A stretch of DNA of 64,000 nucleotides from Methylomonas koyamae (GTDB lineage Bacteria > Pseudomonadota > Gammaproteobacteria > Methylococcales > Methylomonadaceae). Location: NCBI RefSeq assembly GCF_019669905.1, contig NZ_AP019777.1, positions 4,402,001 through 4,466,000 of the forward strand, read 5' to 3'. Positions within the stretch are counted from its first letter, which is position 1. Each line of letters begins with the position of its first letter. The notes below the pieces were generated by a model, which worked only from the letters and a program-made list of their open reading frames with translations, was not told the DNA's origin and searched no databases. A program made the position numbers and the translations under genes. This document shows, one piece after another, positions 36,789 through 62,371 of this stretch.

Positions 36789-39413
36789 TCAAACGAATAT
36801 CAAGCCGCCGAAACTCGCCGCATCCAGCGGCCGGCTGAAGTAATAGCCTTGCACCTCGTCGCAGGCCAGTTCCCGCAAAAATGCCAGTTGTTCGGCGGTT
36901 TCGACGCCTTCCGCCAATACGGTCAGCCGCAGGCTGTGGCCCAGGGCCAGTATCGAGCGGGTGATGGCGCTATCGTTGGCGTCTTGCGGAATGTCCATGA
37001 CAAAGGACCGGTCGATTTTCAATTTGTCGACCGGCAAGCGTTTCAAATAGCTCAACGACGACTGGCCGGTACCGAAATCGTCGATAGCCAGCGTCAGGCC
37101 GAGGTCGCGCAGGGCTTCCATGACCTGAATATTGCGCTCGGCCTGGCGCATGATGTAGGTCTCGGTTATTTCCAGCTCCAGATGCTGCGGTGCCAGGCCG
37201 GTTTCCGCCAAAATCCGCCCGACCGCAGCCAACACGTCGCTACGCTCGATCTGCGCTCCAGACAGATTGACCGCCATCCGCTGAAAGCCTTTGCCGGCTT
37301 CCGCCCAAATCCTGGCCTGGCGGCAGGCCGTGCGCAACACCCATTCGCCGATCGGTACGATCAAACCGGAATCTTCGGCGATTGCGATGAATTTGTCCGG
37401 CGGTATCATGCCTCTGTCCGGATGGCGCCAGCGCAGCAACGCCTCGGCTCCGATCAAGCGGCCGTCCGCCAGCGAATACTGGGGTTGGTAGTGGACTTGC
37501 AATTCGCCCCGGTTCAGCGCCTCGCGCAATTCGCCCTCCAAAAACAGGCGCTCCCTGGCCCGCTCGGTCAAGTGCGCTTCGAAAAACTGAAAATTGCCGC
37601 GGCCACGTTCTTTGGCTTGGTACATCGCCAGATCGGCGTGCTTGATCAGCGTCGTGTAATCCTCGCCGTCGTCGGGATAAAGGCTGATACCGATCGAAGT
37701 GCCGATTTCCAGCTTATGTCCTTGTACCTGAAACGGCCAGGCCAAGGCCTGCAAAATCTTGGCGGCGACTTTTTCGGTATCGCTGATGCTGGGATGGCTT
37801 TCCAGCAGGATGATGAACTCGTCGCCGCCCAGGCGCGCCACAGTGTCGCCCTGGCGCAAGCTGTCCTTCAAGCGTTGCCCGGCCATCCGCAGCAGTTCGT
37901 CGCCGACCGGATGCCCTAGGCTGTCGTTGACGTGTTTGAACCGGTCCAGGTCCAGAAACAGCAAGGCCAGCGTTTGCCGGTCGCGCCGGGCCCGTTCCAG
38001 ACTGTGCTCGCAACGTTCTTGAAAATGCTGCCGGTTCGGCAGATCGGTCAAGGCGTCGTAATACGCCAGATAATGGATGTGTTCGGCGCTTTGTTTTTGC
38101 TCGCTCAGATCGTAAAACACGCTGATATAGCAAATCACCCGGCCCTCGCTGTCGCGCACCGACGATATGTTCTGCCACAGCGGAATCAGTTCGCCGTCCT
38201 TGCGCCGGTCCCAGATCTCGCCTTGCCATTTGCCCTCGCGTTTCAGCGAGCTCCATAACTCCTGGTAGAAGCGTTTGCCGTGGTGGCCGGACTTGAACAG
38301 ATTGGGCTTGCGGCCGACCACCTCGTCCGGCTTGTAGCCCATCACCTCGCTGAACACCCGGTTGACTTTCAAAATATGGGCCTTGGCGTCGGTGATCAAA
38401 ATCGCGTTCAGGCTGTTGTCGAACACACTGGCAGCCAAGCGCAGTTGTTCGTCAACAATGTGTTGCTCGGTAATGTCCTGCACCGTGCCGACCGAACGCA
38501 GCGGTCGGCCGTCGGCCGCGTAATAATTCTGCGAGCGCTCGTGCACCCATTTGATGCTGCCGTCGGCGAATTGCAGGCGGTGTTGGATATCGTAAGGCTG
38601 GCTGTTGGCGAGCGAAGCTTGGTAGGCGCGATCGACCTGCTCCCGGTCCTCCGGATGCACCAACGCCAGAAACGCTTGGTAGCTGTGCGGCGGCTCGGTC
38701 CGGGTCAATTCGAAAATCCGGTAGACCTGCTCGGACCAGGTCAGGCGGCCGCTGGCCAAATCCAGCTCCCAATGGCCCAATTGGGCGATGTGCTGGGCCT
38801 CTTTCAACAGGCTTTCGCTGCGGCGCAAGCGCTCCTGCTGTTGCTTCAACACCGTGATATCGGTGGCGCAGATCACGGCGCCTTCTTCCTTACCCTGCGG
38901 GTTATGCTGCACGCTGCCCTTGAGCCAATAATGCCGGTAACGCCCGTCGCGGCCGCGCAAACGGTGCTCGGCCGCATAATCGCCCCGGCAGCGCACCGTC
39001 TCGAATAACGGCGAATGCACCGGCCAAGGCAGGCTACCCAGCTCTGCGGCCAGGCTTTGGCGTTCCGCCGGATGCAGCCAAGCATCGGCAACGGCCGGTT
39101 CCGGCTCCGCGCCTACAGCAGCCAGTTCCTGCGCACATTGCTGATTGATCCGAAGTAAGCGCCCGTCCGGGCCGAGTACGATCATCAAGGCGCCGGTGCT
39201 GTCCATCACCCGTTGGATGAAATTGCTTTGGCTCTGGTAACGCTGGTTGGCTTCGCGTAACGCATTGCCGTGCGATTCCAGCGCCCGCAGCATCTCGTCG
39301 GTACGCTCGGCATCCCGGCTCATTTGCCGTTCCAACGCGGCGTTGGCCAGGCGCAAGGCTTCCACTTCGGTCCGCAACCGCGCCAGTTCCTGCTGCAATG
39401 CCGCTTCATTCAT
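36789..39413 (-). CDS. PAS-PAS-PAS-GGDEF-EAL protein linked to the hydrogenase
   Basis: 874 residues. A coiled coil lies at about 1-65, followed by three PAS domains (about 68-190, 200-320, 325-445; for example LGHWELDLASGRLTW and ILITDAKAHILKVNRVFSEV). A GGDEF domain with intact LGGDEF and an EAL domain with GAEALLRW, NLSGAQ and AIDDFGTGQSSL follow. Both c-di-GMP synthesis and hydrolysis look possible. There is no membrane segment, so it is cytoplasmic. Its start overlaps the hydrogenase protease stop by 8 nt, so it is translated with the hydrogenase and is a candidate receiver of its signal. Confidence 0.93.
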   Translation of the reverse strand: MNEAALQQELARLRTEVEALRLANAALERQMSRDAERTDEMLRALESHGNALREANQRYQSQSNFIQRVMDSTGALMIVLGPDGRLLRINQQCAQELAAVGAEPEPAVADAWLHPAERQSLAAELGSLPWPVHSPLFETVRCRGDYAAEHRLRGRDGRYRHYWLKGSVQHNPQGKEEGAVICATDITVLKQQQERLRRSESLLKEAQHIAQLGHWELDLASGRLTWSEQVYRIFELTRTEPPHSYQAFLALVHPEDREQVDRAYQASLANSQPYDIQHRLQFADGSIKWVHERSQNYYAADGRPLRSVGTVQDITEQHIVDEQLRLAASVFDNSLNAILITDAKAHILKVNRVFSEVMGYKPDEVVGRKPNLFKSGHHGKRFYQELWSSLKREGKWQGEIWDRRKDGELIPLWQNISSVRDSEGRVICYISVFYDLSEQKQSAEHIHYLAYYDALTDLPNRQHFQERCEHSLERARRDRQTLALLFLDLDRFKHVNDSLGHPVGDELLRMAGQRLKDSLRQGDTVARLGGDEFIILLESHPSISDTEKVAAKILQALAWPFQVQGHKLEIGTSIGISLYPDDGEDYTTLIKHADLAMYQAKERGRGNFQFFEAHLTERARERLFLEGELREALNRGELQVHYQPQYSLADGRLIGAEALLRWRHPDRGMIPPDKFIAIAEDSGLIVPIGEWVLRTACRQARIWAEAGKGFQRMAVNLSGAQIERSDVLAAVGRILAETGLAPQHLELEITETYIMRQAERNIQVMEALRDLGLTLAIDDFGTGQSSLSYLKRLPVDKLKIDRSFVMDIPQDANDSAITRSILALGHSLRLTVLAEGVETAEQLAFLRELACDEVQGYYFSRPLDAASFGGLIFV

Positions 39414-39864
39414 GGTGTTGCGGAGCGAAATAAACGCTGAGCAAAGCCACCGCGCGTTCCACGGCCGCGGCGACCGGTGCCGACAAGCCCGGCCGGAAAG
39501 GCTCCACGGCGGCGGCTTCGACGCCGACGATGCGCACCGTCGGCGCCGGTTCCGGCATTACCGCCAACGCCGCCAGCAGATAGCCGACACCGTGGCCGTG
39601 GCCGGCCGCCGCCGACTCCAGCGGAATGGCTTCCGCCGCCAGCTCCAACAACCTGCCGGGGTGGCCGGCCGGAGCCAGCGCATCGACGACGACGACCTCG
39701 GCGCAATCCCGGAACAGCGCCAGCGCGGCAAGGCCGGGCGTACCGGCATCGAACAGGCGCACGTCCGCCGCCAACGGCAACTGGGACAAGCGCTGGTAAA
39801 CGGCCGGCCCGAAGCCGTCGTCGCCATGCAAGGGATTACCGAAACACAGAATGTGGCGCATCAT
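39406..39864 (-). CDS. hydrogenase maturation endopeptidase (HupD/HycI family)
   Basis: 152 residues with the family opening ILCFGNPLHGDDGFGP, the Asp in VVVVDALAPAG and the His cluster in GHGHGVGYLLA; these three positions bind nickel in HybD-type proteases. It cleaves the C-terminal tail of the nickel-loaded large subunit. It lies 18 nt after the large-subunit gene and overlaps the PAS-GGDEF-EAL gene by 8 nt. Confidence 0.92.
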   Translation of the reverse strand: MMRHILCFGNPLHGDDGFGPAVYQRLSQLPLAADVRLFDAGTPGLAALALFRDCAEVVVVDALAPAGHPGRLLELAAEAIPLESAAAGHGHGVGYLLAALAVMPEPAPTVRIVGVEAAAVEPFRPGLSAPVAAAVERAVALLSVYFAPQHHE

Positions 39865-39882
39865 CGCGGCAATAGGCGGGAA

Positions 39883-41400
39883 TCAAGGCGCGAAACGCAA
39901 CTTTTTTCCGCTGTCCAACATATGCACGGTACAGACCAGGCAGGGATCGTGCGAGCGGATGATATGGCCGATTTCTATCGGATCGTCGGGGTCCTGCACC
40001 GCCACGCCGACCAGACTCTGCTCCCAGTGGCCGGGCAGGCCGTTACTGTCGCGCGGCGACGCGTTCCAGGCGGTGGGGGTGACGATTTGGTATTGGGCGA
40101 TGACGCCGTCTTCGATTTTCAGCCAGTGGCCCAACGCGCCGCGGGCAGCCATGATCAGGCCGAAACCTTCGCCGTCGATTTCGGCGGATTTGGCCGGATT
40201 CAGGATATGCGGCTGACCGATGTCGGCAGCCAATTCTTCCAACATGCGCCGGGCTCCCGCCAATTCGTAAGCGATGCGGCGCACTCTGGCGAACTGGCGC
40301 AGCCAGGCATTGCCGCCTTCCGCCGCATGCAGCGACCGAATCAGCGCATCGCCGCCGATCAGCAGTTCCGCCAGGGGCCCGGTCTGCACCGCCTTGTCGC
40401 CGTAGCGCGGCGCCTTGGCCCAGGTATAGCGGTCGCTGTTGGGCTGAAAATCCGGCACCGTTTCGCCGTTCAGCGGATGCCGGCCGCCCGGGTAAGGCCG
40501 AAACCAGGAGTGGCGCACGTGTTCGTTGACCAATTGCTGGTCGAAGGGGCTCAGCGTGGCACTGTCGCCGTCGTAGAAGCCGCCCGGCAGCAGCCGGCCC
40601 GACGCCTGCTGCGGATCGCACCACGCGCCGAAACTCAACATGTGCCGGGTCCCGGCCGCCATGCCGTGCAACCCGAGCGAGCGGGCGCAACGGCTCAACA
40701 AGCCGAGCGCACTATCGGCATGGGCCGGCGTTTCCAGCCATTCGAAATAGGCATCGGCACTGTCCAACGCCAACCATTCGTCGAGCGGCGCACCGACGAT
40801 AACCTGTTCGTACCAATGCTGGATATCGTCCAACACCGCGCGGCAGGCCAAAATCCGCCGCAAATCGGGCGGTATCGTGACGCCGCCCGGCAGCATGTAG
40901 GAGGAATGCGGCCATTGCCCGCCGAATTGGGCGACGACCTCGACCGCCTTGCGGCTTTGGGCCAGAGTCTGCCGATAAATCGAGCCGCGGAACGGTTCGA
41001 AACGCTCGGTCAACTCGGCAAACCAGGCCTGGTCCCGGTAACGCGGATTGCAAAAATCCGGCGCGAAAAACAGAAAGGTCTGGCGCAGGTCGTTTTGTAT
41101 GCCCTCGGCGATCAGGCACAGGTTGCGGATTCGCACCGCATTCGGCGGCACCGGCACCTGCCAGATTTGCTCCAGCGCCAGCACCGCCGAATAAAGATGC
41201 GCGGTACCGCAAATGCCGCAAACCCGCGGCGTGATCACCAAGCTGTCGCGCGGCGCCCGGCCCAGCATGATTTGTTCGAAACCGCGGTACAGCGTGCCGA
41301 CGGTGCGGGCTTCCGCGACGACGCCGTCCTCCAACACCACGGCAATTTCCAGATCGCCTTCGACCCGGTTCAGACTCAGATTGAGCTCGACTCTAGCCAT
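39883..41400 (-). CDS. [NiFe] hydrogenase large subunit (group 2-like)
   Basis: 505 residues. The N-terminal nickel ligands are in RVCGICGTAH (Cys61, Cys64) and the C-terminal ones in SHDPCLVCTVH (Cys487, Cys490, His493). Twelve residues follow His493 (MLDSGKKLRFAP), the tail a maturation protease would remove. The sequence around the motifs (EIGHIIRSHDPCLVCTVH) resembles group 2 enzymes (uptake and H2-sensing types). The start shares one base with the small-subunit stop (TGATG), so the two are translationally coupled. It should be cytoplasmic, since the small subunit has no Tat signal. Confidence 0.95.
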   Translation of the reverse strand: MARVELNLSLNRVEGDLEIAVVLEDGVVAEARTVGTLYRGFEQIMLGRAPRDSLVITPRVCGICGTAHLYSAVLALEQIWQVPVPPNAVRIRNLCLIAEGIQNDLRQTFLFFAPDFCNPRYRDQAWFAELTERFEPFRGSIYRQTLAQSRKAVEVVAQFGGQWPHSSYMLPGGVTIPPDLRRILACRAVLDDIQHWYEQVIVGAPLDEWLALDSADAYFEWLETPAHADSALGLLSRCARSLGLHGMAAGTRHMLSFGAWCDPQQASGRLLPGGFYDGDSATLSPFDQQLVNEHVRHSWFRPYPGGRHPLNGETVPDFQPNSDRYTWAKAPRYGDKAVQTGPLAELLIGGDALIRSLHAAEGGNAWLRQFARVRRIAYELAGARRMLEELAADIGQPHILNPAKSAEIDGEGFGLIMAARGALGHWLKIEDGVIAQYQIVTPTAWNASPRDSNGLPGHWEQSLVGVAVQDPDDPIEIGHIIRSHDPCLVCTVHMLDSGKKLRFAP

Positions 41401-42341
41401 CAGACGTCCATCTCTTTATCGCGCACCCGAGCCGGCGCCGCGGCCCGCGCCAGATTTTTGTAGGCCATGTAGCGGGCGCGCTCGACTCCGAGCGGGAGCC
41501 GCACCGGAATATCGCCGATTTTCGGGGTACTGAACAAATCGGCTTCGCGCGGAAAGGTCGGCGACGTACAACCGAAGCACGGCACGCCGGCCCGGGTCTT
41601 GCTGCTGACGCCGTTCCACAGGTCGCTGTTGCAAACCGCTTGCGTCATCGGCCCCTGGCAACCCAAATTGAAAAACAGACAGGCGCGGCCGCCGGGCTCC
41701 AGTTCCTCGATGTCGTATTCGTGGTATTCGTTGCGGGTGCAGCCTTGATGGACGATGGTGTTGAAAAACGCCTGCGGCCGGTTCAAACCGTCCAACGGCA
41801 GCGGCCATCCGGCGGCCAGACCGGCCAGGGTTTGCGTCATCGTATGCGGATGGGCCGGGCAGCCGGCAACGTTGACTACCGGTAAACCGCGCCGGGAGCG
41901 CCATTCCGGCGGCAGCAAACCGCCCGGCCGGTCGCGGTCGAATTGCAGGCCGATACAGTCGCTGGGATTGGGCGCCGCCGCATGCACGCCGCCGAACGCG
42001 GCGCAGGTGCCCATCGCCACCACGACGCCGGCCTGTTGCGCCAATTCGCGCACCATCTCCATTTTCGCCCGGCCGCGGTAGCTGTCGTACAGTCCGGTAC
42101 CGCGCGGCGCCGTGACGATACTGCCTTCCACACATAAAATATCCAGCGTTTGCTCGCCGCTGACGATGCGCTGGTAGATCGCATCGTGCTGGCTCATCGG
42201 CTGGTGGGATAGCGAGGGGTGCCAGAGGAGTTCGACGCCGTGGTCGGTCAACAACTGCTCCAAGCTCGGCGTTTCGGCCGACAAAATAGCCAAAGAATCG
42301 CCGCCGCAGGCGCCGGTCTGCAACCAGAATAATGTAGCCAT
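41400..42341 (-). CDS. [NiFe] hydrogenase small subunit (group 2-like)
   Basis: 313 residues, starting at MATLFWLQTGACGGDSL, where GGAGG precedes the ATG by 5 nt. There is no Tat signal peptide and no C-terminal membrane anchor, so it is soluble. Iron-sulfur ligands lie in MGTCAAFGG, VNVAGCPAHPHT, HQGCTRNEYHEYD, LFFNLGCQGP and VPCFGCTSP. The usual second Cys of the N-terminal CxxC is Asp15 (CGGD). It is the first gene of the hydrogenase/c-di-GMP operon. Confidence 0.95.
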   Translation of the reverse strand: MATLFWLQTGACGGDSLAILSAETPSLEQLLTDHGVELLWHPSLSHQPMSQHDAIYQRIVSGEQTLDILCVEGSIVTAPRGTGLYDSYRGRAKMEMVRELAQQAGVVVAMGTCAAFGGVHAAAPNPSDCIGLQFDRDRPGGLLPPEWRSRRGLPVVNVAGCPAHPHTMTQTLAGLAAGWPLPLDGLNRPQAFFNTIVHQGCTRNEYHEYDIEELEPGGRACLFFNLGCQGPMTQAVCNSDLWNGVSSKTRAGVPCFGCTSPTFPREADLFSTPKIGDIPVRLPLGVERARYMAYKNLARAAAPARVRDKEMDV

Positions 42342-42572: not shown

Positions 42573-43190
42573 CTAGCCCTTCAGGACCCAAGGAAAATAA
42601 GTCAGCACCAGTTCGGCGATGGTTTTGTTCAATTCGGTATTCTGGGCGTTGACGTATTCCACTTTCTCGTACAGTTTCAACGAGTCGCCAACCGCCGGCA
42701 TACTGAATTCGCACATCGTAAACAGCGAATAACACCAGGCGTAAATCACCGGGATATTGGACTTCAGGTGTTTTTGGGTTTCTTCTTGCAGCCATTTAGC
42801 CTGACCGGTTTTGCTTTGCTGGGTATCGATGATATCGACCGTGATATCGGTAAACTCTTTCAGCGCCTTGGCCCTGACCCGGTTGTCCTCGTCGATATGC
42901 TCTTTGGCAAAAACGTTCAGCGTCATACCCTTTCTATCGACGATATTCGGGATGTCGCCGTGGCGCCCGGAAAACACTTTGAAATTTTTATGGCCTTGAG
43001 AGCGCAACAACGCAACAAGCGGCAGCCAGGAGTTTTCGCCGGTTATCGTCACCGACAGGTATAGCTGGCCGACCTGAACCCAGGGGCAATCTTCGTCTTT
43101 GACGTCACCCGATAACAGATTCTTACTGATCACGCTCGGCTTGGCGGTCGAGTTGTGGTTGTACAAGGTATTGGTCGGTTTGGTAGCCAT
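42573..43190 (-). CDS. hypothetical protein, 205 aa
   Basis: The cytoplasmic-looking protein has no signal peptide and no obvious membrane segment. Visible parts include GDVKDEDCPWVQVGQLYLSV, LVALLRSQGHKNFKVFSGRH, TVDIIDTQQSKTGQAKWLQE and IAELVLTYFPWVLKG. A purine-rich GGGGG lies upstream of the ATG. It lies 231 bp upstream of the hydrogenase small subunit in the same orientation, so it could belong to that regulon, but its role is unknown. Confidence 0.7.
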   Translation of the reverse strand: MATKPTNTLYNHNSTAKPSVISKNLLSGDVKDEDCPWVQVGQLYLSVTITGENSWLPLVALLRSQGHKNFKVFSGRHGDIPNIVDRKGMTLNVFAKEHIDEDNRVRAKALKEFTDITVDIIDTQQSKTGQAKWLQEETQKHLKSNIPVIYAWCYSLFTMCEFSMPAVGDSLKLYEKVEYVNAQNTELNKTIAELVLTYFPWVLKG

Positions 43191-49531: not shown

Positions 49532-51526
49532 TCAGTTGATCATGACCACACCGCCCTTCAGCGTCAACGTGCCGTCGCCGTTGACGGAAGTCTGCAAGCC
49601 TTTCAATTCCGCTTGAGTATCGGCTTGGATTTTGACGGTCATGCCTTTGATCGTCACGCCGCTTTGATCGAGCTTGATACTGCTCGACCCGACTCTGAGT
49701 TCTATCGATTGCTCGGCTTCTTCGAGAATGGCGCCTTTATCCAGCTTTACCGTCAGATTGCCCGATCCTAAACTAACTGTACGGTTACCGGAGCTGACGG
49801 TCAATTCGTCATTACCTCGTTTGATCTCGACGGTACGGTTGCCGGTCTTGACCGTCAACTTGTCGTTACCCTGATCCAGCGTCACGGTGCGGTGGTTATA
49901 AATATCTATGGTTTGGTCGCCGGGATCTGCCCTCTCGAAACCTATTTTCTGTACGTCGTTGTTCTTGACGATGCGGGTAAAGTTCTTTTCCGCTTGCATA
50001 TAGATTTCTTCTTCGTCTTTTTTATCTTCGAAGCGTAATTCGTTGAAGTTCCCGGCCTCACCGTTTGGCGTGCTGCGCGTCTTGATACCGCTTTGGGTCT
50101 TGTTGGCATCCAGCCCGTAAGGCGGCATGTTGACGCTGTTATAGACCCGGCCGGTGATGATCGGATTGTCCGGGTTGCCTTCCAGAAAATCGACGACAAC
50201 CTCCTGCCCGACTCGGGGTATGAACATGCTGCCCCAATTTTTACCGGCCCAAATCTGCGCAACCCGAACCCAGCAGGAGCTATTCTCGTTTTTAGTTCCG
50301 AGCCGGTCCCAATGGAACTGGACTTTGACTCGGCCATATTGGTCGGTCAGGATCTCGTCGCCCTCCGCTCCTACCACGACAGCGGTTTGCACGCCCTGCA
50401 CCACCGGGACCCTGGTCAACCGCGGCGGCCGGTAAACATACGCAGTTTTGATCACCGAATAGGTACACAGGTACTCTTCTTCGCCGCCGACGCCGGAATC
50501 GAAACCGTTGTTGCGGATACTGATATCGGTCGACAACACCATGTATTGGCAATTTTGGTCGGCGCGGGGATATTCGGCTAGAGTAAAGGTCAGACCGGTT
50601 GCCAATCCTCTGACATTGCCGCCGGCAAATATCTGTTCGTGCTCGGAGCGAACCTGCTCCATGCGCAAGCGGGCGTAGCGCTCGCCCTGCGTGGCGGTTT
50701 TATATTCGCCCGGATAATCGTAAATTTCCTTGCCGGATTCCGCGTGCTCGCCGTCAATCAACGACGCCACCTTCAAGTCAGACGTGACTGCTTCGAAATC
50801 GTATTCGTTCAAATAGTAACCGCCGGACTGAATTTGCCGGCTGAAAGTCCAGTCGAAAATATGCTCTTCGTCGCGGACACCCTGGTTATCGGGCGGGTAA
50901 TACTTGACCGTGGCATTGCCGGCAAGCGCTTGGTGCGCCTGCATGTTGTCGCACAACACCATGGTGTGGCTGCCGTTCTGGTGCTGGAAGTAGTAGTAGA
51001 TACCCTCCTCTTCCATCAATCGGCTGACCAGATTGAAGTCGGTTTCCCGGTATTGCACGCAAAATTCGCGTTCCGGGTAGGTTTCGTTCAGATTCAAGGT
51101 CGGCACGATGCCGTAATTGCCGAGTATGCTCTTGACGATCTCGGAAGCGGTAGTAGGTGCCGCTTGGTTGTTTTCGCCGACAGAAGGCGACAAAACTCGG
51201 CAATTACTGGATCGGGTCATTAGCCAAGCCTTCGGATGCAGCCAGACCCGATAGTTGTACAAATCTCCGAGCATACCAAGTTGATTGACCCGGGTAACAA
51301 TGCCGTTAAACCAACGGCTGCCGCCGTTCTCCAACGCCAATTCCACGGTCAGGCCGGTGCCGAGCAAGGCTTTCAAGTCGACGGTTCCGCTTTCGCTCAA
51401 CAATTCCAATTGGTATTCGAACAAACTGCTGACGGCCTCGCTACCGGTCATCCGATACAGCACGAAAACACCGTCACCCAGTGCCGTGGTCACCTTAGCT
51501 ACCCGCTGATCTTGAGAGAGGGACAT
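49532..51526 (-). CDS. vgrG: type VI secretion spike protein VgrG
   Basis: 664 residues. The gp27-like part includes FEYQLELLSESGTVDLKALL and REFCVQYRETDFNLVSRLME; the gp5-like OB domain includes TDQYGRVKVQFHWDR and WVRVAQIWAGKNWGSMFIPR. The C-terminus is a beta-prism with repeats of GNRTV/GNDxLTV and ends at GVVMIN, with no extra toxin domain. It forms the needle tip and pairs with the PAAR gene upstream. AGGA lies 7 nt before the ATG. Confidence 0.97.
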   Translation of the reverse strand: MSLSQDQRVAKVTTALGDGVFVLYRMTGSEAVSSLFEYQLELLSESGTVDLKALLGTGLTVELALENGGSRWFNGIVTRVNQLGMLGDLYNYRVWLHPKAWLMTRSSNCRVLSPSVGENNQAAPTTASEIVKSILGNYGIVPTLNLNETYPEREFCVQYRETDFNLVSRLMEEEGIYYYFQHQNGSHTMVLCDNMQAHQALAGNATVKYYPPDNQGVRDEEHIFDWTFSRQIQSGGYYLNEYDFEAVTSDLKVASLIDGEHAESGKEIYDYPGEYKTATQGERYARLRMEQVRSEHEQIFAGGNVRGLATGLTFTLAEYPRADQNCQYMVLSTDISIRNNGFDSGVGGEEEYLCTYSVIKTAYVYRPPRLTRVPVVQGVQTAVVVGAEGDEILTDQYGRVKVQFHWDRLGTKNENSSCWVRVAQIWAGKNWGSMFIPRVGQEVVVDFLEGNPDNPIITGRVYNSVNMPPYGLDANKTQSGIKTRSTPNGEAGNFNELRFEDKKDEEEIYMQAEKNFTRIVKNNDVQKIGFERADPGDQTIDIYNHRTVTLDQGNDKLTVKTGNRTVEIKRGNDELTVSSGNRTVSLGSGNLTVKLDKGAILEEAEQSIELRVGSSSIKLDQSGVTIKGMTVKIQADTQAELKGLQTSVNGDGTLTLKGGVVMIN

Positions 51527-51570
51527 GTCGAAATCCTAAATGAAACTGTTGAATAACTAAGCCAGGCGGC

Positions 51571-51861
51571 TCAACCGATCAATACCGTCGGATAGCCGAC
51601 AATAATGGTGCCGCCATGGGCGCAACTGTCGCCCATCCGGGCCGCGGGCATATTGCCGATCAATACCGTCGCCGACCCCATCGCGATGGTATCGGGCGGC
51701 CCGACGCAGACGGCCATGTCGGTGGCTCTTGCGGCAGGCATACTGCCGATCAAAACCGTTGCCGCACCCGGACCTGAAATCGGCCCACCGACGTGAGGTA
51801 CCGGTCCGTTGAACATCGGGCAAACATGCATGTCGGTCAAGCGTGCAGCAGGCTGTCCCAT
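51571..51861 (-). CDS. PAAR domain protein (spike tip)
   Basis: 96 residues opening with GQPAARLTDMHVCPMF and containing repeats of TVLIGSMPAARATDMAVC and TVLIGNMPAARMGDSCAHGG, the PAAR-repeat signature. It caps VgrG and may carry cargo. The short form has no toxin extension, so the effectors are probably loaded separately. It lies between the DUF6931-like gene and vgrG. Confidence 0.92.
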   Translation of the reverse strand: MGQPAARLTDMHVCPMFNGPVPHVGGPISGPGAATVLIGSMPAARATDMAVCVGPPDTIAMGSATVLIGNMPAARMGDSCAHGGTIIVGYPTVLIG

Positions 51862-51869
51862 TCCCCCCC

Positions 51870-52466
51870 CTAAGCCGCTTGCCAGACGCGGCCGTTACCG
51901 CCGTTGGCGATATCGATGCCTTGCTCCAGAAAGAACTGGTATTTGTCCTGGGATTTGTCCGGCTGCGTCAGTACCGCGGCCAGCATCACGGCCCCGGCCA
52001 CAGCCTTACCGGTCAAATTGTCGGCCGGCGGCACGGCCGGCACGTTTTCCGGTGCCATACTGCCTTCACTCCAGAACGCCGCCATCGCCGCCCAGGCCGC
52101 CGGATTTTCGAACGACGCATCGTGGGCGGCGCTATTCGCCAAGCGGCGATTGGGTTCGGTAGGTTTGAATACCCATAACTCGGCTGCCTCCAAGGCTTTC
52201 ACCACTTCCGGCTTGGTATCCGGTCCGACCACACTGCGGGCGCTGATGCAGGCCCACCAGGTTGCTTCCCGCTTGGGTAAGGCTCTTGCCAGAAACCGAA
52301 CGGCATCTGGGAACAGTTTGAGTTCGATCAAGTTGCGCAAAAATGCCGCCGGCGCCAAGTCGTCGGCCAAACAACGTAACGCTTCTGGCTCCAACTGAAT
52401 GTCCCGGCAAATTTGCGCCGCCGTAGGCATCGTCACTTTGCGTAAACTTACCGCAGTTGTCATGCT
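51870..52466 (-). CDS. DUF6931-like T6SS-associated protein
   Basis: 198 residues starting at MTTAVSLRKV, chosen because GGGAG lies just upstream. It contains MPTAAQICRDIQLEPEA, LPKREATWWACISAR and LANSAAHDASFENPAAWAAM, a family often found next to PAAR genes, which I recall as DUF6931. It may be an adaptor between effector and PAAR. Only context supports a function. Confidence 0.65.
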   Translation of the reverse strand, partial: SMTTAVSLRKVTMPTAAQICRDIQLEPEALRCLADDLAPAAFLRNLIELKLFPDAVRFLARALPKREATWWACISARSVVGPDTKPEVVKALEAAELWVFKPTEPNRRLANSAAHDASFENPAAWAAMAAFWSEGSMAPENVPAVPPADNLTGKAVAGAVMLAAVLTQPDKSQDKYQFFLEQGIDIANGGNGRVWQAA

Positions 52467-52568
52467 GTCTCCCATCTCCAACGTGTCTGATTTCAGATTT
52501 TCTCTGTCGCGATTACGAATCTGCCAAGTAAAAATCTTAACCGTTGCACGCCGAGTTAGCTACCCGAT

Positions 52569-53270
52569 TCACAACGCTTCGAATGGGTCTATATTGGCCC
52601 AGTCCGTTTGCAAAACCGCCTGCCAACAATTGCCTTTTCCGTGCGCACCGCCGCCGGTGGCATTCGGCAAATCCACAACCATGCCGACATGGTCGCCCGC
52701 CACCCCCTCGACACTGACCAAATCGCCGGCGATTCGGAAATTGACGCCGGGGCAATCGGATGCGCTTTTCGATTTCCAGGTCCGCAGCATCATTTGCGGC
52801 TTGAAGATATTGACATGGGCTGCTTTGATAACCTGGGCCATCGCCGGCGCGTTAAAGGTGACGAACGGCACGCCTTCCCAAACGCCGACCACTTGCGCCA
52901 AGCCGCCGCCTAACGAATGCCCGGTCACCGATATTCTTCTGCCGTTGGCAATTTGTTTGGCGGCCTTCAGCATTTGCCGCGCCGACGAAGATTGGTTGGG
53001 TAGAATACGCAAACCGATTCTCAGGTCGGCCCCGATATCCGAAAATAGCTTTCCCGCTTGCCCCGGATTCGTGCCACAACAACCGACCACGACGTCCGAG
53101 CTGTTGCACCATATACCGCCTTGAAAACCGTCTCCGTACCAGGTCCCCGATTCCCACTTCTGCACCTGCCAATCGTCGACCATATGGCCGGGAGGATCGG
53201 CGTAATACTGGTTGGCGCGTTTGTAATAAGCAGCTATTGCGATTTTTGCGTAGTCTAGGCAGGTAGCCAT
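52569..53270 (-). CDS. class 3 lipase-like protein, candidate T6SS effector
   Basis: 233 residues starting at MATCLDYAKIA, with GAGGA upstream. The nucleophile elbow GHSLGGGLAQ contains the catalytic Ser; GDLVSVEGVAGDHVGMVV probably supplies Asp and His, completing a lipase class 3 triad. Phospholipase effectors (Tle) are common T6SS cargo. It lies between the DUF6931-like gene and the unknown cargo genes. No signal peptide is present, as expected for T6SS cargo. Confidence 0.75.
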   Translation of the reverse strand: MATCLDYAKIAIAAYYKRANQYYADPPGHMVDDWQVQKWESGTWYGDGFQGGIWCNSSDVVVGCCGTNPGQAGKLFSDIGADLRIGLRILPNQSSSARQMLKAAKQIANGRRISVTGHSLGGGLAQVVGVWEGVPFVTFNAPAMAQVIKAAHVNIFKPQMMLRTWKSKSASDCPGVNFRIAGDLVSVEGVAGDHVGMVVDLPNATGGGAHGKGNCWQAVLQTDWANIDPFEAL

Positions 53271-53319
53271 TGTGACAGTCCTCAATGCGTGACGTTTACA
53301 ACCAATAAAGTCGAATAAG

Positions 53320-53988
53320 CTAAGGTGTTTTGTTCGTTGCAGCTTTGTTCAAACAAAATCGTTGTATCTGAGTCTTCGCTTTATTCGGCGGAGAAGGCGT
53401 ACCTGTCCGATTTTCGACACGGCAAGCCAGCCAATGTACAACGCAAGTATCATTGGTGTTTCCCGCTATTTCGGCAGCGAATTTAAGTATTTCGTCCAAC
53501 GCCATCTCATCTTTATCCGAACCAAACTTCCGGTCGGCGATTTTTTTGTCAGAACCGTCCCAGCCACTGGTTGCAAAACATCCAAAGCTGTACTTTAGCG
53601 GATCATCTTTTTGGCCGGGGCCGTGTACAACGTAATCGAACAAAAACGTGTCAGCGGCTTTTCCGCCGGTAATCAGGGACGGCCAATCTGTGCCGAAACT
53701 GGGCATCAAATGACTGTAGTTGGTAAGAGGAGTAATTTTCTCGATAGGCTTCATGCCGAGCTTTCCGCGCAGTCGTAACAGTCCGCCTTCGAGATCTGAT
53801 TTGTTCTGGAAATTTTTCTTCATAATTTCATCTTTTAGCGTCGTTGCTAAATCGGCACTAATTTCTTGTCCCGGCGGTACATAAAAGACCACCCAAACAT
53901 TATTGGGCAAGTTTAATGTGTCGGGATCGTCCGTCCCGTCAACAAGAATCCCCCCATGGCCAATCGCGCAAAAATGCTGCATACCCAT
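53320..53988 (-). CDS. hypothetical T6SS cargo protein (222 aa)
   Basis: No confident family. The opening is HFCAIGHGGILVDG followed by NNVWVVFYVPPGQEISADLA, reminiscent of Stv-type domains (GHG...F-x-x-P-G). Later parts include YSFGCFATSGWDGSD and TCVVHWLACRVENRTGTPS. It lies between the lipase and the papain-like cargo gene in the same orientation and may be a cargo or an immunity protein. Confidence 0.55.
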   Translation of the reverse strand: MGMQHFCAIGHGGILVDGTDDPDTLNLPNNVWVVFYVPPGQEISADLATTLKDEIMKKNFQNKSDLEGGLLRLRGKLGMKPIEKITPLTNYSHLMPSFGTDWPSLITGGKAADTFLFDYVVHGPGQKDDPLKYSFGCFATSGWDGSDKKIADRKFGSDKDEMALDEILKFAAEIAGNTNDTCVVHWLACRVENRTGTPSPPNKAKTQIQRFCLNKAATNKTP

Positions 53989-54103
53989 GATCGATTACCC
54001 CCAATGAAATCAAAAATGCCAAAAAACCGGTGTACGTGTTACAGCAAAATGGCGGCGCGATATTTTTATCGAGCCTGCGGGATATTCAACATCCGGCTCC
54101 AAT

Positions 54104-54784
54104 TCAACCGATAGTTTGGGTCGTCGTTCGGACATTTTGATTACTCTTCAAGTAAACCCGATAAATGGCTTCAAAATCCCAGGGCTTAATATCTTTGATC
54201 GAATCAAAGCCATCGCCCCATGTGTAGTATTTACCTCGGCCACCATAAATCCAGTGACCGAGACCGCCGTATTTGGAATTACCTTTAGCATGAGGTGACT
54301 TGACGCCGATTATTCCGGTTGCTGTCTGGCTCACCGTGGCTTCAAATGCCGCGTCCACGGAATACATTGTGTTCAAGAAATGCACGATGGCTTCGGGCGG
54401 CAGCGGTAGGTTGATTTCCAATCCAGCCAATTTGTCTTCGGTCACCTGCGATTTGTCGCCAGTTAACAGTTTGGTGATCTGGTCTTTGGTTTTATGATAA
54501 TCCCAGACCAGCTGTTTTCCGTCGGGCATACCGAAATCGGCAGCAAAATCGATGATTTTTTGTTTGATCGGATCACCGCTTTGCTCGATCTTTTGCAGCC
54601 AATTGCTCATCGCAATCAACACCGTATGGAATTGGGTATGGTCGATCAATTCGCGTCGTCGCGGCCCTGCTCTAAAATCGAATAACAACATCATGCAAGC
54701 GTTGATACCGCAGATTCCCCACTTCTTATTCGTCGCGCTCAGTCCCGAAATCGTGCTCAAGACTCGTGTCTTACTCATTGACAT
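54104..54784 (-). CDS. hypothetical cargo protein with papain-like Cys/His pattern
   Basis: 226 residues; the start at MSMSKTRVLS follows a purine-rich GGGGTGG. Near the N-terminus is NKKWGICGINACMMLLFDFR, where W-G-x-C-G-x-N-A resembles the active-site helix of papain-like peptidases, and near the C-terminus GGLGHWIYGGRGKYYTWGDG supplies a Gly-His-Trp and an Asp. It could be a cysteine peptidase or amidase effector. Only motif spacing and context support this. Confidence 0.55.
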   Translation of the reverse strand: MSMSKTRVLSTISGLSATNKKWGICGINACMMLLFDFRAGPRRRELIDHTQFHTVLIAMSNWLQKIEQSGDPIKQKIIDFAADFGMPDGKQLVWDYHKTKDQITKLLTGDKSQVTEDKLAGLEINLPLPPEAIVHFLNTMYSVDAAFEATVSQTATGIIGVKSPHAKGNSKYGGLGHWIYGGRGKYYTWGDGFDSIKDIKPWDFEAIYRVYLKSNQNVRTTTQTIG

Positions 54785-54895
54785 CGTATCCACCCCGGTT
54801 AATTGTTAAAGTTTTCGAGTGCTTGGTTGATTCGTTGCTTAAAGGCGTTCCGGATTGCCGGTTTTTTCCTCTGTCGCTGCGGTTTCTAATCGCTA

Positions 54896-55495
54896 TCAGC
54901 CGGTCAACATAGTGGTCTTAAACGGAAATAAACCTAGATGCTTGATCTGGCCGGGGCCCAGGATTTCGTACTTCTGATAGAAGAAGTTCCAGGTGCCGTT
55001 GATACGGATACCGAACGTCGTCAGATTTTTTCGAGTCTCGTCCGCAGATTTTCGGGCATACATGTGCGGAGTAATGTATAGGGTGCCGCTGCCCATCAGC
55101 GAATCGACCGCTTCGCCGTACTCTTCGCCCAGACCGGACGAATTCATGTTGCCGTGGGTAACCATCACCGTACCGTCGTCCGCTTGCGAACCGATGCCGA
55201 AGGTGCAACCGTTCATGGTCACGGTAAAACAGTAGTCCGCTTCCTGGTCCAAAATTTGATAATGCACTTTGTCCGGTGTGTAGTCGCAGATATACGACTT
55301 GAAACCCGCCATGGCGTTGGCCGTCTGTTTCAAGTTGTAAACGGGCACAGCGGCGCCTTTGTCGTTGACGCCTTTAAATTGCTGGTCAGGCGATAGTGCG
55401 ACCAATTCGGCACGCCCGTAGACACTGGTGTTACGCAGAAAACCGGTCTTGATGATGCTCGATTCCATCAGATTCAATAATTCGCTGGGCGTCAT
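54896..55495 (-). CDS. hypothetical cargo protein with CNF-like Cys...HGN pattern
   Basis: 199 residues. The central part reads MNGCTFGIGSQADDGTVMVT and then HGN, placing a Cys and a His 17 residues apart, followed by Gly-Asn. The same order occurs in CNF1-type glutamine deamidases (Cys and His 15 apart, each on adjacent strands). The rest (AELVALSPDQQFKGVNDKGA, YITPHMYARKSADETRKN, RINGTWNFFYQKYEILG) is not recognised. It is flanked by cargo candidates in the same orientation. Alternatives are an immunity or structural protein. Confidence 0.55.
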   Translation of the reverse strand: MTPSELLNLMESSIIKTGFLRNTSVYGRAELVALSPDQQFKGVNDKGAAVPVYNLKQTANAMAGFKSYICDYTPDKVHYQILDQEADYCFTVTMNGCTFGIGSQADDGTVMVTHGNMNSSGLGEEYGEAVDSLMGSGTLYITPHMYARKSADETRKNLTTFGIRINGTWNFFYQKYEILGPGQIKHLGLFPFKTTMLTG

Positions 55496-55580
55496 GGTTT
55501 AGCTCGATTCGCGGTGATGTTTCACGGGAAGGCGATTGCCTTAGGTCTGCTCGTAGTAAAGCCGGTACCGAACCCGGACC

Positions 55581-56003
55581 TCACCCCAACGCAGGGAAAT
55601 CCTCGACATAGGACTTCTTGATGGTCTTCTCTATCGTCGTATAGATGCTGACCTGTTCGAGATGGAAGATTTGCCGAACATTCCTTTGACTGGCCCATCC
55701 CCAGATGTATTTGAACTTTACGTCCTTATAGACGGTAACCTGATCATTGCGACGGTCGGCGACAATGCCGTAGCTAACGGTATTGGCGATTTCAACCACG
55801 GTTTCACGGGTGCTGATGGCCAAGGAATCGCAGTGGGCGAGGATCTGTTGTGCCTCCGACGAACTGACCACTAAGGTCGAATTGGCGCGGACGCTACGAT
55901 CGTTCAGGCGCTTGACCGCCTCGTCAATCAACTTTTCCTTGTTATCGCTGGGCGCAAAGACGCGGATATGATTGGTCTGAAACCCGTTTGTAAATTTGGC
56001 CAT
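55581..56003 (-). CDS. hypothetical T6SS-associated protein (140 aa)
   Basis: The start at MAKFTNGFQTNHIRVFAPSD is set by GAGGAATTGACA. The protein is Lys/Asn-rich, with KYIWGWASQRNVRQIFHLEQ and KTIKKSYVEDFPALG. No family is recognised. It is the first gene after clpV, 210 bp downstream, in the same orientation as the cargo genes. Its base composition is less GC-rich than the structural genes. Confidence 0.6.
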   Translation of the reverse strand: MAKFTNGFQTNHIRVFAPSDNKEKLIDEAVKRLNDRSVRANSTLVVSSSEAQQILAHCDSLAISTRETVVEIANTVSYGIVADRRNDQVTVYKDVKFKYIWGWASQRNVRQIFHLEQVSIYTTIEKTIKKSYVEDFPALG

Positions 56004-56213
56004 TGTCAATTCCTCTTTTTATTGAATATTTTTTATCCGTGCCTTAGGTAAGCGCTAATCGCAGGTGTATGCGTCATAAAACTACCATCGAAGCGCAGGC
56101 TTAGACTGCAAGCTCAGGGCAACACACCGGCTTTTCAGCCGGAGGCTAATAACCGTGGCGGCGCGGTCTCGTCGGGCACAATGCTCATGCATAGGGTGTC
56201 CCTCAGCATTACG

Positions 56214-58907
56214 CTAATCGAAGCCGTATTGAAAATCCCCGTCCGACGCGCTCACGTTCACTCGTTCGACCGGCGCACCCTGCATCATCCGGGTCAAAAA
56301 CTCCTCGCTGATTTTGGGCAGAACGGTGTTGGTCAGGATGGCATCGATCATCCGGCCGCCGCTTTCCAACTCGGTACAGCGGCTGGCGATCAGTTTGATC
56401 ACGTCGTCGTCGTAGTTGAACGGGACTTTGTGGGTTTCTTCGACGCGTTTTTTGATTCTGTTCAATTGCAAGCGGGCAATCGCGCCTATCATTTCGTCGT
56501 TTAACGGATAGTAAGGAATCACGACCAGACGGCCGAGCAGCGCCGGCGGAAATACTTTCAGCAACGGCTCGCGCAAGGCTTTGGATATGCCTTCCGGTTC
56601 CGGCATCAGATCCGGGTCCTTGCACAGATTGGCGATCAAGTCGGTACCGGCGTTGGTAGTCAACAAAATCAGCGTGTTTTTGAAGTCGATGACCCGGCCT
56701 TCGCCGTCTTCCATCCAACCCTTGTCGAACACCTGGAAAAAGATTTCGTGCACGTCGGGATGGGCTTTTTCGACCTCGTCCAGCAACACGACGCTGTAAG
56801 GCCGGCGCCGCACGGCTTCGGTCAATACGCCGCCCTCGCCATAACCGACATAGCCGGGAGGCGCGCCTTTCAGCGTCGACACGGTATGCGCTTCCTGGTA
56901 CTCGCTCATGTTGATGGTAATGACGTTCTGCTCGCCGCCGTACAAGGCTTCGGCCAAGGCCAGAGCGGTTTCGGTCTTACCGACGCCGGATGTACCGGCC
57001 AACATGAACACGCCAATCGGTTTATTCGGATTGTCGAGACCTGCGCGCGAGGTCTGAATCCGTTTGGCGATCATTTCCAGCGCGTGGCGTTGGCCGATGA
57101 TGCGCTGCTCCAGATTGTCGGCCAATTTCAGCACGGTTTCGATTTCGTTTCTGACCATCCGCCCGACCGGAATGCCGGTCCAATCCTGTACCACCGCAGC
57201 GACGGCCTGATGGTCGACGGTCGGCAGGATCAGCGGCGATTCGCCTTGTTGTTCGTGCAATTGCGTTTGCAGCGATTTAAGTTCGGTCAGCATGGCATCG
57301 CGATCCTCGTGTTCCGCTGCCGATTCGTCAGCCGTAGCGTTCGCGCCATCCACGGCATGGCCGGCCGAGCGCAATTTACCCCGAAGCGCCAGAATTTTGC
57401 CGACCAATTCTTTCTCGGCGTTCCAGCGCTCCTCCAGACCCAGCAAGCGCTCGCGTTCGGCCGCCAATTTTTCGTTGGCCAACTCTTCGCGGCCGGCCAC
57501 TTCGACACCGACAGCTTTTTCGCGGCCGATGATGGCGAGTTCGGTTTCCAAGGCTTCGATACGCTTACGACAATCGTCGACTTCGGCCGGCACCGCGTGC
57601 TGGCTGACGCCGACCCGGGCACAGGCGGTATCCAACAGACTGACCGCCTTGTCCGGCAGTTGCCGGGCCGGAATATAGCGGTGCGACAGTTTTACCGCGG
57701 CTTCCAGCGCCTCATCCAGAATCAGCACTTGGTGGTGTTTTTCCTGTACCGAAACCACGCCGCGCATCATCCGGATCGCCTTGGCTTCGTCCGGTTCGTG
57801 GACTTGCACGACTTGAAAGCGGCGGGTCAAGGCCGGGTCTTTCTCGATATGTTTTTTATACTCGGCCCAGGTCGTTGCGGCGACGGTACGCAATTGGCCG
57901 CGCGCCAACGCCGGCTTCAACAGATTGGCCGCATCGCCGGTGCCGGCCGCACCGCCGGCGCCGACCAGGGTGTGGGCTTCGTCGATGAACAAAATGATGG
58001 GTTTCGGCGACGCTTGGACTTCTTCGATGACCTGACGCAGGCGGTTTTCGAATTCGCCCTTCATGCTGGCACCTGCCTGCAGCAAACCGACGTCCAAGGT
58101 GCGCAAACTGACGTCGCGCAAGGACGGCGGTACGTCGCCGGCGACGATTTTCAAAGCGAAGCCTTCGACCACGGCGGTCTTGCCAACGCCGGCCTCGCCG
58201 GTCAAAATCGGATTATTCTGGCGGCGGCGCATCAGGATGTCGATTACCTGGCGGATTTCCTCGTCGCGGCCGACGATAGGATCGATCTTGCCTTGGCGGG
58301 CCTGTTCGGTCAGGTCGACGGTGAACTGTTTCAGGGCCTCCTGCTTGCCCATCGCCGCCGGCGCCATCGCGCCGCTGGCCTCGCCCGGCGTCGCAGCAAT
58401 GTGGCTACCGTCGGTTGCCGCCAAACCGTCTTCCGGCGAACCGGCAATTACGCTTGGCAACTCGTCCGATAGGCTATCCGGTTTAAATTTTTCGAATTCG
58501 CGGGAAATGCCGATTAGCTCGTTGCGCAGGCCTTTGGTTTTCAGCATGCCGACCAGCAAATGGCCGCTACGCACCTGGTTTTCGCCGAATAACAGCGTGC
58601 CGTAAACCCAACCGCGTTCGACGCTGTCTTCGATGTGCGGCGAGAAATCGGAAATCGAGGTCGAGCCGCGCGGCAATTTGTCCAGCGCTTCTGTGACTTC
58701 TTTGGCGATCCGCGACATGTCCAGGCCGTAATGCTTGATTGCCCGGTGCAGGTCGGAATCGGGCAATTGCAGCAATTGGCTCAGCCAATGCACCAATTCG
58801 ACATAAGGGTTGCCCCGCAGCTTACAAAACACCGTTGCGCTTTCGACGGCTTTGTAACAAACCCGGTTTAATTTCCCAAACAGCTTGACTCGGCTAATTT
58901 CTGCCAT
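56214..58907 (-). CDS. clpV: T6SS ATPase ClpV (TssH)
   Basis: 897 residues with a Clp N-domain, first AAA module with Walker A in GEAGVGKTAVVEG, coiled-coil middle domain (ERERLLGLEERWNAEKELVG) and second AAA module with Walker A GTSGVGKTETALALAEAL. The C-terminal region ends near RVNVSASDGDFQYGFD. It disassembles contracted sheath after firing. AGGAA precedes the start; it lies 33 bp after tssG. Confidence 0.97.
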   Translation of the reverse strand: MAEISRVKLFGKLNRVCYKAVESATVFCKLRGNPYVELVHWLSQLLQLPDSDLHRAIKHYGLDMSRIAKEVTEALDKLPRGSTSISDFSPHIEDSVERGWVYGTLLFGENQVRSGHLLVGMLKTKGLRNELIGISREFEKFKPDSLSDELPSVIAGSPEDGLAATDGSHIAATPGEASGAMAPAAMGKQEALKQFTVDLTEQARQGKIDPIVGRDEEIRQVIDILMRRRQNNPILTGEAGVGKTAVVEGFALKIVAGDVPPSLRDVSLRTLDVGLLQAGASMKGEFENRLRQVIEEVQASPKPIILFIDEAHTLVGAGGAAGTGDAANLLKPALARGQLRTVAATTWAEYKKHIEKDPALTRRFQVVQVHEPDEAKAIRMMRGVVSVQEKHHQVLILDEALEAAVKLSHRYIPARQLPDKAVSLLDTACARVGVSQHAVPAEVDDCRKRIEALETELAIIGREKAVGVEVAGREELANEKLAAERERLLGLEERWNAEKELVGKILALRGKLRSAGHAVDGANATADESAAEHEDRDAMLTELKSLQTQLHEQQGESPLILPTVDHQAVAAVVQDWTGIPVGRMVRNEIETVLKLADNLEQRIIGQRHALEMIAKRIQTSRAGLDNPNKPIGVFMLAGTSGVGKTETALALAEALYGGEQNVITINMSEYQEAHTVSTLKGAPPGYVGYGEGGVLTEAVRRRPYSVVLLDEVEKAHPDVHEIFFQVFDKGWMEDGEGRVIDFKNTLILLTTNAGTDLIANLCKDPDLMPEPEGISKALREPLLKVFPPALLGRLVVIPYYPLNDEMIGAIARLQLNRIKKRVEETHKVPFNYDDDVIKLIASRCTELESGGRMIDAILTNTVLPKISEEFLTRMMQGAPVERVNVSASDGDFQYGFD

Positions 58908-58940
58908 CGCTACATTTCCTGTTCAAAAGTTAAGGTTGGT

Positions 58941-61864: not shown

Positions 61865-61870
61865 GGCCGC

Positions 61871-62371
61871 TCAATCCAATTCCTGAATGGTCATTTCCCC
61901 AGTCTCCAGATCGAGGTCGCTGCGGATAAACAAATGAATCGGCAACGGCTGCGCCCATAGATCGCCTTCGATGGTAAAAGACAGGGCTTTGTTACTCATC
62001 TGCTCGTCGTCCTTCACCAGCTCCACCGACAGCGAATCCGGCAAGATGCGCGGTTCGAAACTGGCTATCGCCTGCTTAACCTTTCTCTGGATCTGTTTGG
62101 CATCGATGCCGGTTACCGAAACGCCGGAAAACACCGGCGAGCCGAAGTTCAACACCGAATTCGCCACGAACGGGTAATCGGCAAGATCGGTCATGCTTTC
62201 CAAAGCCGCCGTGTTCAGCAGCCAGCTTAAATCGCGTAGTACGCTTTGCCGGAGTTGACGCATCGACATGACGCGTTGTTCGCGGCTTTCTTTTTGATTT
62301 TCCGGCGCATCGTCGGTCAGCCGGTCCAATAAGGACGGCTGCAAGCGCTCGGAGTGAAGCAAATCGGCCAT
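61871..62371 (-). CDS. tssE: T6SS baseplate protein TssE (gp25-like)
   Basis: 166 residues with LQPSLLDRLTDDAP, SVLRDLSWLLNT and IASFEPRILPDSLSVELV, the gp25-like signature around the central E-P-R. It forms part of the sheath nucleation site. Its start overlaps the tagJ stop by 1 nt (TAATG), so they are coupled. Confidence 0.95.
   Translation of the reverse strand: MADLLHSERLQPSLLDRLTDDAPENQKESREQRVMSMRQLRQSVLRDLSWLLNTAALESMTDLADYPFVANSVLNFGSPVFSGVSVTGIDAKQIQRKVKQAIASFEPRILPDSLSVELVKDDEQMSNKALSFTIEGDLWAQPLPIHLFIRSDLDLETGEMTIQELD

Follow-up and report, generated by a model that had tools for sequence, protein, structure and literature searches.

Does the hydrogenase operon of Methylomonas koyamae encode a sensor that passes the presence of H2 into cyclic di-GMP (c-di-GMP) signaling? 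The operon occupies positions 36789-42341 of a 64,000-nucleotide stretch of DNA (contig NZ_AP019777.1, positions 4,402,001 to 4,466,000; hereafter the window) and lies at 4.44 Mb of a 5.1-Mb genome. Its four genes encode the two subunits of a [NiFe]-hydrogenase, a maturation protease, and a protein with PAS, GGDEF, and EAL domains. A preliminary description of this DNA had read it as a putative H2-to-c-di-GMP sensor. Here, we find that the hydrogenase-c-di-GMP operon is real and conserved and that its hydrogenase falls in group 2c, and we propose that a soluble, H2-responsive group 2c complex probably controls c-di-GMP through an N-terminal helix-PAS module of the fourth protein. The core idea of group 2c as an H2-to-c-di-GMP sensor is already published as a prediction in HydDB, whose table, in the excerpt available to us, lists group 2c as diguanylate cyclase-linked (putative) with an undetermined role and states that it may sense H2 and regulate processes by way of cyclic di-GMP production (PMC5037454). 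The window operon is an expected member of that catalogued group.

All four genes lie on the minus strand. The small subunit (41400..42341, 313 aa; Pfam Oxidored_q6 and NiFe_hyd_SSU_C) overlaps the large subunit (39883..41400, 505 aa; Pfam NiFeSe_Hases, L1 motif RVCGIC, L2 motif DPCLVCTVH) by 1 nt. An 18-nt gap leads to a maturation protease of the HycI/HupD family (39406..39864, 152 aa; Pfam HycI), which overlaps by 8 nt a PAS-PAS-PAS-GGDEF-EAL protein, the predicted sensor output (36789..39413, 874 aa; Pfam PAS_3, PAS_4, GGDEF, and EAL). The order and spacing are identical to those first described, and the Pfam matches of all four proteins are above their cut-offs. None of the four proteins has a twin-arginine pair in its first 35 residues or a 19-residue segment above a Kyte-Doolittle mean of 1.65, which bears out the earlier view that the enzyme, its small subunit included, has neither a twin-arginine translocation (Tat) signal nor a membrane anchor. 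Because the same gene order occurs in many other bacteria, the arrangement is not due to chance.

The preliminary description had called for placing the large subunit in a hydrogenase phylogeny. We built a maximum-likelihood tree of 91 large subunits, which holds a group 2c clade of 78 rows, six group 2a rows, and five group 2b rows; the first tree was made without L023, L033, L081, and L082, and the second without eight near-duplicates. The window large subunit lies inside the group 2c clade, with a Shimodaira-Hasegawa-like approximate likelihood ratio test (SH-aLRT) value of 99, and outside both the 2a and the 2b clades. The name "2c" rests on Methylobacter tundripaludum SV96 (L035), a member of this clade, rather than on the HydDB classifier: in the part of PMC4853749 available to us, a gene classed as 2c had M. 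tundripaludum as its top match. The same source gives SFDxCLVCTVH as the 2c consensus for L2 and takes an SHD variant as consistent with it; the window sequence SHDPCLVCTVH fits this type. Of the named large subunits among the matches listed, that of Methylomonas sp. SURF-1 is nearest, at 93%. A PDB search gave Huc, a group 2a enzyme, as the best match for both subunits, and only Huc matched over nearly the full large subunit.

We then compared the fourth gene across 81 group 2c loci, 80 from genome contigs and one from a plasmid. Distant members are under-sampled in this set, as the contigs are only the best 80 of 591 candidates. Seven loci stop at a contig edge before a readable fourth gene, leaving 74 in which it follows the protease or is fused to it. 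The partner carries a GGDEF motif in 39 loci (37 with an EAL pattern) and a histidine-kinase motif in 30. The remaining five were unclassed by motif (L016 and L026 are cut, L040 is split in two frames, L057 and L069 are short) and match the window partner at 48-486 bits. Pfam, applied to 20 of the 74 partners, found GGDEF plus EAL in 8 and a kinase ATPase domain in 12, six of the latter with a receiver domain; PAS was found in 19 of the 20, the exception being L045. One Methylomonas partner (L060:9656-12589) has SGDEF in place of GGDEF, so its cyclase may differ. The association of group 2c with diguanylate cyclases, cited in the preliminary description, thus stands for the window and 39 relatives and fails for 30 of the 69 motif-classed relatives, which are kinase-linked; group 2c is linked to diguanylate cyclases only in part.

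The gene order is kept in alpha-, beta-, and gammaproteobacteria and in a SAR324 contig, with classes taken from organism names. Output type changes at least three times on the large-subunit tree and likewise on a tree of the shared module described below. In the module tree, kinases L028 and L072 have modules that group with 19 GGDEF modules in a starred set, which is what an exchange of output beneath a retained module would give. Ten loci, all with kinase partners, have protease and partner fused, which corresponds to one change on the tree. In a phylum survey, 33 of 398 genomes matched at E <= 1e-80, and nine stretches from eight of them were examined. Seven more loci, L104-L110, lie in the clade or next to it, and all seven have a kinase or a GGDEF partner. 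A sister clade of six loci (SH-aLRT 99) holds four hybrid kinases and two GGDEF-only partners, with a protease match in all of its loci other than L110. The two remaining stretches, L111 and L112, are 2a- and 2b-like and have no such partner after the protease.

What the partners share is their N-terminus. Over about 195-200 residues, the window partner is predicted to form a long helix followed by a PAS fold (38793..39392, with a helix of 64 residues), modeled by AlphaFold2 at a mean predicted local distance difference test score of 86. The module is common to 69 of 70 classified partners, the window included. A profile built from 31 GGDEF partners recovers 29 of 30 kinases at 114-191 bits, and one built from 26 kinases recovers 40 of 40 GGDEF partners at 129-194 bits; other PAS domains of the same proteins reach at most 30.3 bits. 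The kinase outside the recovered set, L048, is split over two frames and scores 41 bits. In the window genome, the module scores high on one protein only: the partner itself, which is also a row of the profile, reaches 267 bits, and 85 other matches reach at most 43.8. Among partners of known regulatory hydrogenases, HoxJ scores 44.8 bits and three HupT-type kinases score 72.9, 49.4, and 39.5 bits, with the alignment starting inside the helix. A profile-profile comparison of the module with HoxJ/HupT gave 98.8% probability over 169 columns, a value that has no unrelated-PAS control beside it. The closest-fold list of the module includes flavin and heme PAS proteins such as NifL, DosP, and FixL. 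HoxJ forms a complex with its hydrogenase, according to the excerpt of PMC10073562 available to us. Since the module spans the output classes and resembles HoxJ, which is complexed with a hydrogenase, it is the best candidate for the docking part, at a HoxJ score only just above the PAS background.

Identities of the module and the large subunit are correlated (Spearman 0.69 over 67 loci; 0.91 for GGDEF, 0.56 for kinase, and 0.42 for mixed pairs). We considered this as contact evidence and rejected it, because such a correlation cannot separate contact from joint inheritance.

The residues of the hydrogenase itself are informative about its type. The positions of HoxC I62 and F110, which we take to constrict the gas channel in the regulatory hydrogenase, hold Ile and Phe in the window large subunit, as in HoxC. 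Ile is found at the first position in 77 of 77 other group 2c rows, and Phe at the second in 63; group 2a has Ile with Leu or Ile, and group 1d has Val with Leu. All 78 group 2c rows keep a C-terminal extension of 12-16 residues beyond the L2 His. In the window, it is 12 residues long (39886..39921) and is the predicted target of the protease. The extension is absent in 5/5 group 2b rows and present in 6/6 group 2a rows. The DDG motif of the protease is kept in 77 of 77 sequences; our patterns for its other metal ligands were unmatched in 6/77 and 20/77, and are too strict to judge by. The NiFe motifs and nine small-subunit cysteines are conserved in group 2c. At position 15 of the small subunit, all 79 group 2c rows have an acidic residue, Asp in 69 (as in the window) and Glu in 10; the residue is Asn in 6/6 group 2a rows and Cys in 4/4 aligned group 2b rows and the one 1d row. 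This acidic residue is a group signature, possibly marking an oxygen-ligated proximal cluster.

Behind the module, the window partner carries a second PAS domain (PAS_3, residues 224-311, 38481..38744) and a third (PAS_4/PAS_9, residues 331-440, 38094..38423); the first, at about residues 76-185, was missed by Pfam and is seen in the family module and the AlphaFold2 model. The GGDEF domain (residues 450-606, 37596..38066) has its GGDEF motif and RxxD I-site intact, and the EAL domain (residues 628-862, 36828..37532) has intact catalytic residues, as had been claimed for both domains. In an alignment of 39 rows (the window and 38 of the 39 GGDEF relatives; L042 was left out, as its start pattern was not found), the catalytic residues checked are each retained in 37-39 rows; of the I-site residues, Arg is retained in 36 and Asp in 38, and the further position T839 is retained in 28. 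The best NCBIfam match of the window partner is the DibA phosphodiesterase at 729.6 bits; DosP scores 416.1 bits, and both are below their curated cut-offs. With both domains intact and DibA as the best match, we lean toward net phosphodiesterase control, which is a guess.

From these comparisons, we propose the following order of events. Hyp proteins encoded elsewhere would load the NiFe site, and the operon's own protease would then remove the C-terminal extension, so that only a finished enzyme can close; both steps are drawn from family knowledge. The mature hydrogenase would dock on the helix-PAS module of the GGDEF-EAL protein. Reduction of the hydrogenase by H2 may then cause a redox or shape change that the module relays to the PAS chain and that alters how synthesis and breakdown of c-di-GMP are balanced. 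HypA, HypD, and a gene with a CobW/HypB domain are present about 200 kb from the operon.

Many relatives carry an additional domain in the receiver. In 29 of 74 partners, about 110 residues with a Rieske-type CxH...CxxH motif precede the module; the window partner does not have this motif. In an alignment of 24 sequences, the four ligands do not vary, a partly circular result because the sequences were chosen by that motif. Pfam called a Rieske domain in seven of ten motif-bearing partners (L080, L035, L030, L049, L083, L052, and L082; not L020, L024, or L068) and likewise in L104. Searched against the PDB, a profile of this part matches ferredoxins and oxygenases of the Rieske type, with a best E of 1.5e-6. 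A fold search with a Rieske-helix-PAS model returned PAS domains in the 50 rows listed and thus did not probe the Rieske part. In the SAR324 locus, the Rieske domain has a reading frame of its own, placed between those of the protease and the kinase; its presence changes at least six times on the tree (29/71 rows). According to the portion of PMC6883350 available to us, Huc of M. smegmatis needs the NifU-Rieske protein HucE to consume H2, and HucE is the proposed immediate electron acceptor. By analogy, the Rieske domain could take hydrogenase electrons inside the sensor complex of relatives. As the window partner is Rieske-free, this route cannot apply here unless another carrier serves. A genome-wide Pfam search gave only two Rieske matches, at 1.91 and 0.15 Mb, both far from the window operon, and a HucE-type gene, which would mark group 2a, is absent from the operon.

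We also asked if the Rieske domain of the 2c partners is a relative of HucE. The 2c profile matches five HucE stretches at 13-26 bits, compared with 39 bits for the genome's own Rieske ferredoxin-like protein and 78 bits for the stand-alone SAR324 Rieske frame, and we do not claim descent. A both-strand motif scan gave hits in other frames of the Rieske-free loci L010, L011, L014, L051, L061, L074, and L087, taken as chance or unrelated. Directly upstream of the small subunit in two of these (L010:5751-6866 and L011:5774-6901) is a frame of 372-376 aa with a Rieske-like motif. The N-terminus of one kinase partner (L066:9971-12058) resembles the 2c Rieske profile at 33 bits, with CxxxC replacing CxxH.

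Taken more widely, group 2c and its sister clade may form a general H2-sensing cassette, made of a hydrogenase, its own protease, and a helix-PAS receiver with a swappable GGDEF-EAL, GGDEF, or histidine-kinase output. In many members, H2 electrons might pass directly into the Rieske cluster of the receiver rather than act by a shape change alone, and the window would represent a Rieske-free branch. We put this forward tentatively and rate it somewhat below an even chance.

Several observations weigh against H2 control of c-di-GMP through the module. The second gas-channel position is Met (12) or Tyr (2) in 14 of the 77 other group 2c rows. By mechanical start calls, just 42 of 64 unfused partners begin no more than 20 nt from where the protease gene ends. 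HoxJ is barely above the PAS background of the one genome searched (44.8 against 43.8 bits), one HupT is below it, and the module is barely recognizable in the six sister-clade partners (27-38 bits). The Rieske clue for the electron route does not extend to the window protein. Lastly, the operon is patchy in the genus, with a large-subunit relative (E <= 1e-60) in only 11 of 37 genomes. The interpretation in the preliminary description is partly supported.

Other explanations account for some of the same data. The hydrogenase could be mainly a catalytic uptake enzyme like Huc, giving electrons to an acceptor or quinone, with the GGDEF-EAL protein tuning it or co-localizing. Huc supplies the closest solved structures and the sole near-full-length match, the retained extension and the protease gene are shared with group 2a, and many relatives have a Rieske-type domain, of the kind HucE brings to Huc (PMC6883350, in part). 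We consider this unlikely, as the window large subunit falls in a separate clade, the fourth genes seen encode signaling proteins rather than cytochromes or HucE, the Rieske profile matches HucE weakly, and Phe at the second gas-channel position agrees with group 2b, group 2a having Leu or Ile. It is similarly improbable that redox state, O2, or another PAS ligand, and not H2, is what the complex senses, with the hydrogenase as a redox gauge. Three PAS domains leave room for other ligands, flavin and heme proteins are among the closest folds, and the acidic residue at the proximal-cluster position is universal in the group 2c small subunits; yet the NiFe motifs, nine cysteines, and extension are all conserved, and it is not obvious why a mere gauge would require a functional NiFe site.

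Control might also run in reverse, with c-di-GMP or the PAS protein regulating hydrogenase activity or assembly, and the position of the partner gene at the end of the operon and its ten fusions to the maturation protease are in keeping with this. The outputs differ, however, over a constant hydrogenase and module, a pattern easier to reconcile with a single input and exchangeable outputs, and we regard reverse control as quite unlikely. We give very little credence to a shared transcript without a working partnership: the patchy occurrence in the genus would suit it, but the order is kept from alphaproteobacteria to SAR324, and it is within the partner that outputs differ and fusions occur. 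An H2-responsive complex acting on c-di-GMP through the module is the reading that we prefer.

If this reading is true, H2 would be a direct input to c-di-GMP signaling, in a bacterium that may make H2 itself. Possible sources in the genome are a strong NifH-family match (441 bits), which makes nitrogenase a possible internal source, and a second [NiFe]-hydrogenase whose neighbors are HoxF/U/Y-like genes, the setting expected of group 3d; no [FeFe]-hydrogenase match was found in the genome. Through the comparison, an annotation that was a placeholder in 2016 becomes a design open to testing, with a defined candidate for the docking module, a proteolytic checkpoint that the classic sensor lacks, and natural output differences. 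The different outputs, common module, Rieske-bearing receivers, and retained extension with protease sharpen the hypothesis, and the Rieske-type domain of relatives is a visible candidate electron acceptor suited to spectroscopy.

Elsewhere in the genome, a 1258-aa PAS-GGDEF-EAL protein (3796010-3799786) is encoded about 2.5 kb upstream of the HoxF/U/Y/H-like genes, so that a c-di-GMP protein is near the second hydrogenase too. In the window, a 205-aa frame just upstream of the operon (42573-43190) has no Pfam or NCBIfam match at E 0.001. A single chain of 1479 aa, a giant hybrid protein (17981-22420), combines HAMP, HisKA, HATPase, receivers, Hpt, GGDEF, and EAL. Also present are type VI secretion genes (49532-63177; VgrG-like, ClpV-like, TssG, TssF, gp25, and ImpE) and RHS-repeat genes (10595-14993), one with a terminal Tlde1-like domain.

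Published work touches on this system at several points; the following holds for the excerpts available to us. A 2025 paper reports group 2c enzymes in Methylobacter, and its authors are aware of no evidence that axenic Methylobacter uses H2 (PMC12810054). A 2025 neighborhood study places clusters of EAL/GGDEF/PAS, kinase, and NifU/Rieske proteins near [NiFe]-hydrogenases (PMC12727194). Four further papers concern group 2b or other hydrogenases (PMC6978683, PMC12319191, PMC4257681, and PMC10734462). Among the open-licence literature matches listed, we saw no test of hydrogenase-mediated H2 control of c-di-GMP, and no description of Rieske domains or kinases in group 2c operons.

Compared with known systems, the window operon is closest to group 2c as tabulated in HydDB, sharing the clade (via the indirect anchor), the L2 ending, and the operon idea. 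It departs from that entry, as excerpted, in that 30 of 69 motif-classed relatives are kinase-linked and many partners have a Rieske-type domain. Like HoxBC/HupUV with HoxJ/HupT (group 2b), it has no Tat signal, has Ile and Phe at the gas-channel positions, and has a partner that aligns over helix and PAS. Unlike these, it belongs to a separate clade, has the extension and its own protease, has a GGDEF-EAL output rather than a histidine kinase, and has Asp rather than Cys at small-subunit position 15. The Huc enzymes of Mycobacterium smegmatis and relatives (group 2a) provide the nearest solved structures, the extension in six of six rows, and a protease gene close by. However, Huc is respiratory and has no signaling partner after the protease, and a NifU-family gene with a Rieske motif accompanies it in five of six stretches (none was seen in Runella). 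Finally, the PAS-GGDEF-EAL phosphodiesterases DosP and DibA share the C-terminal architecture of the window partner, which differs from them in scoring under the curated cut-offs and in its N-terminal helix-PAS module, high-scoring on this protein only within its own genome.

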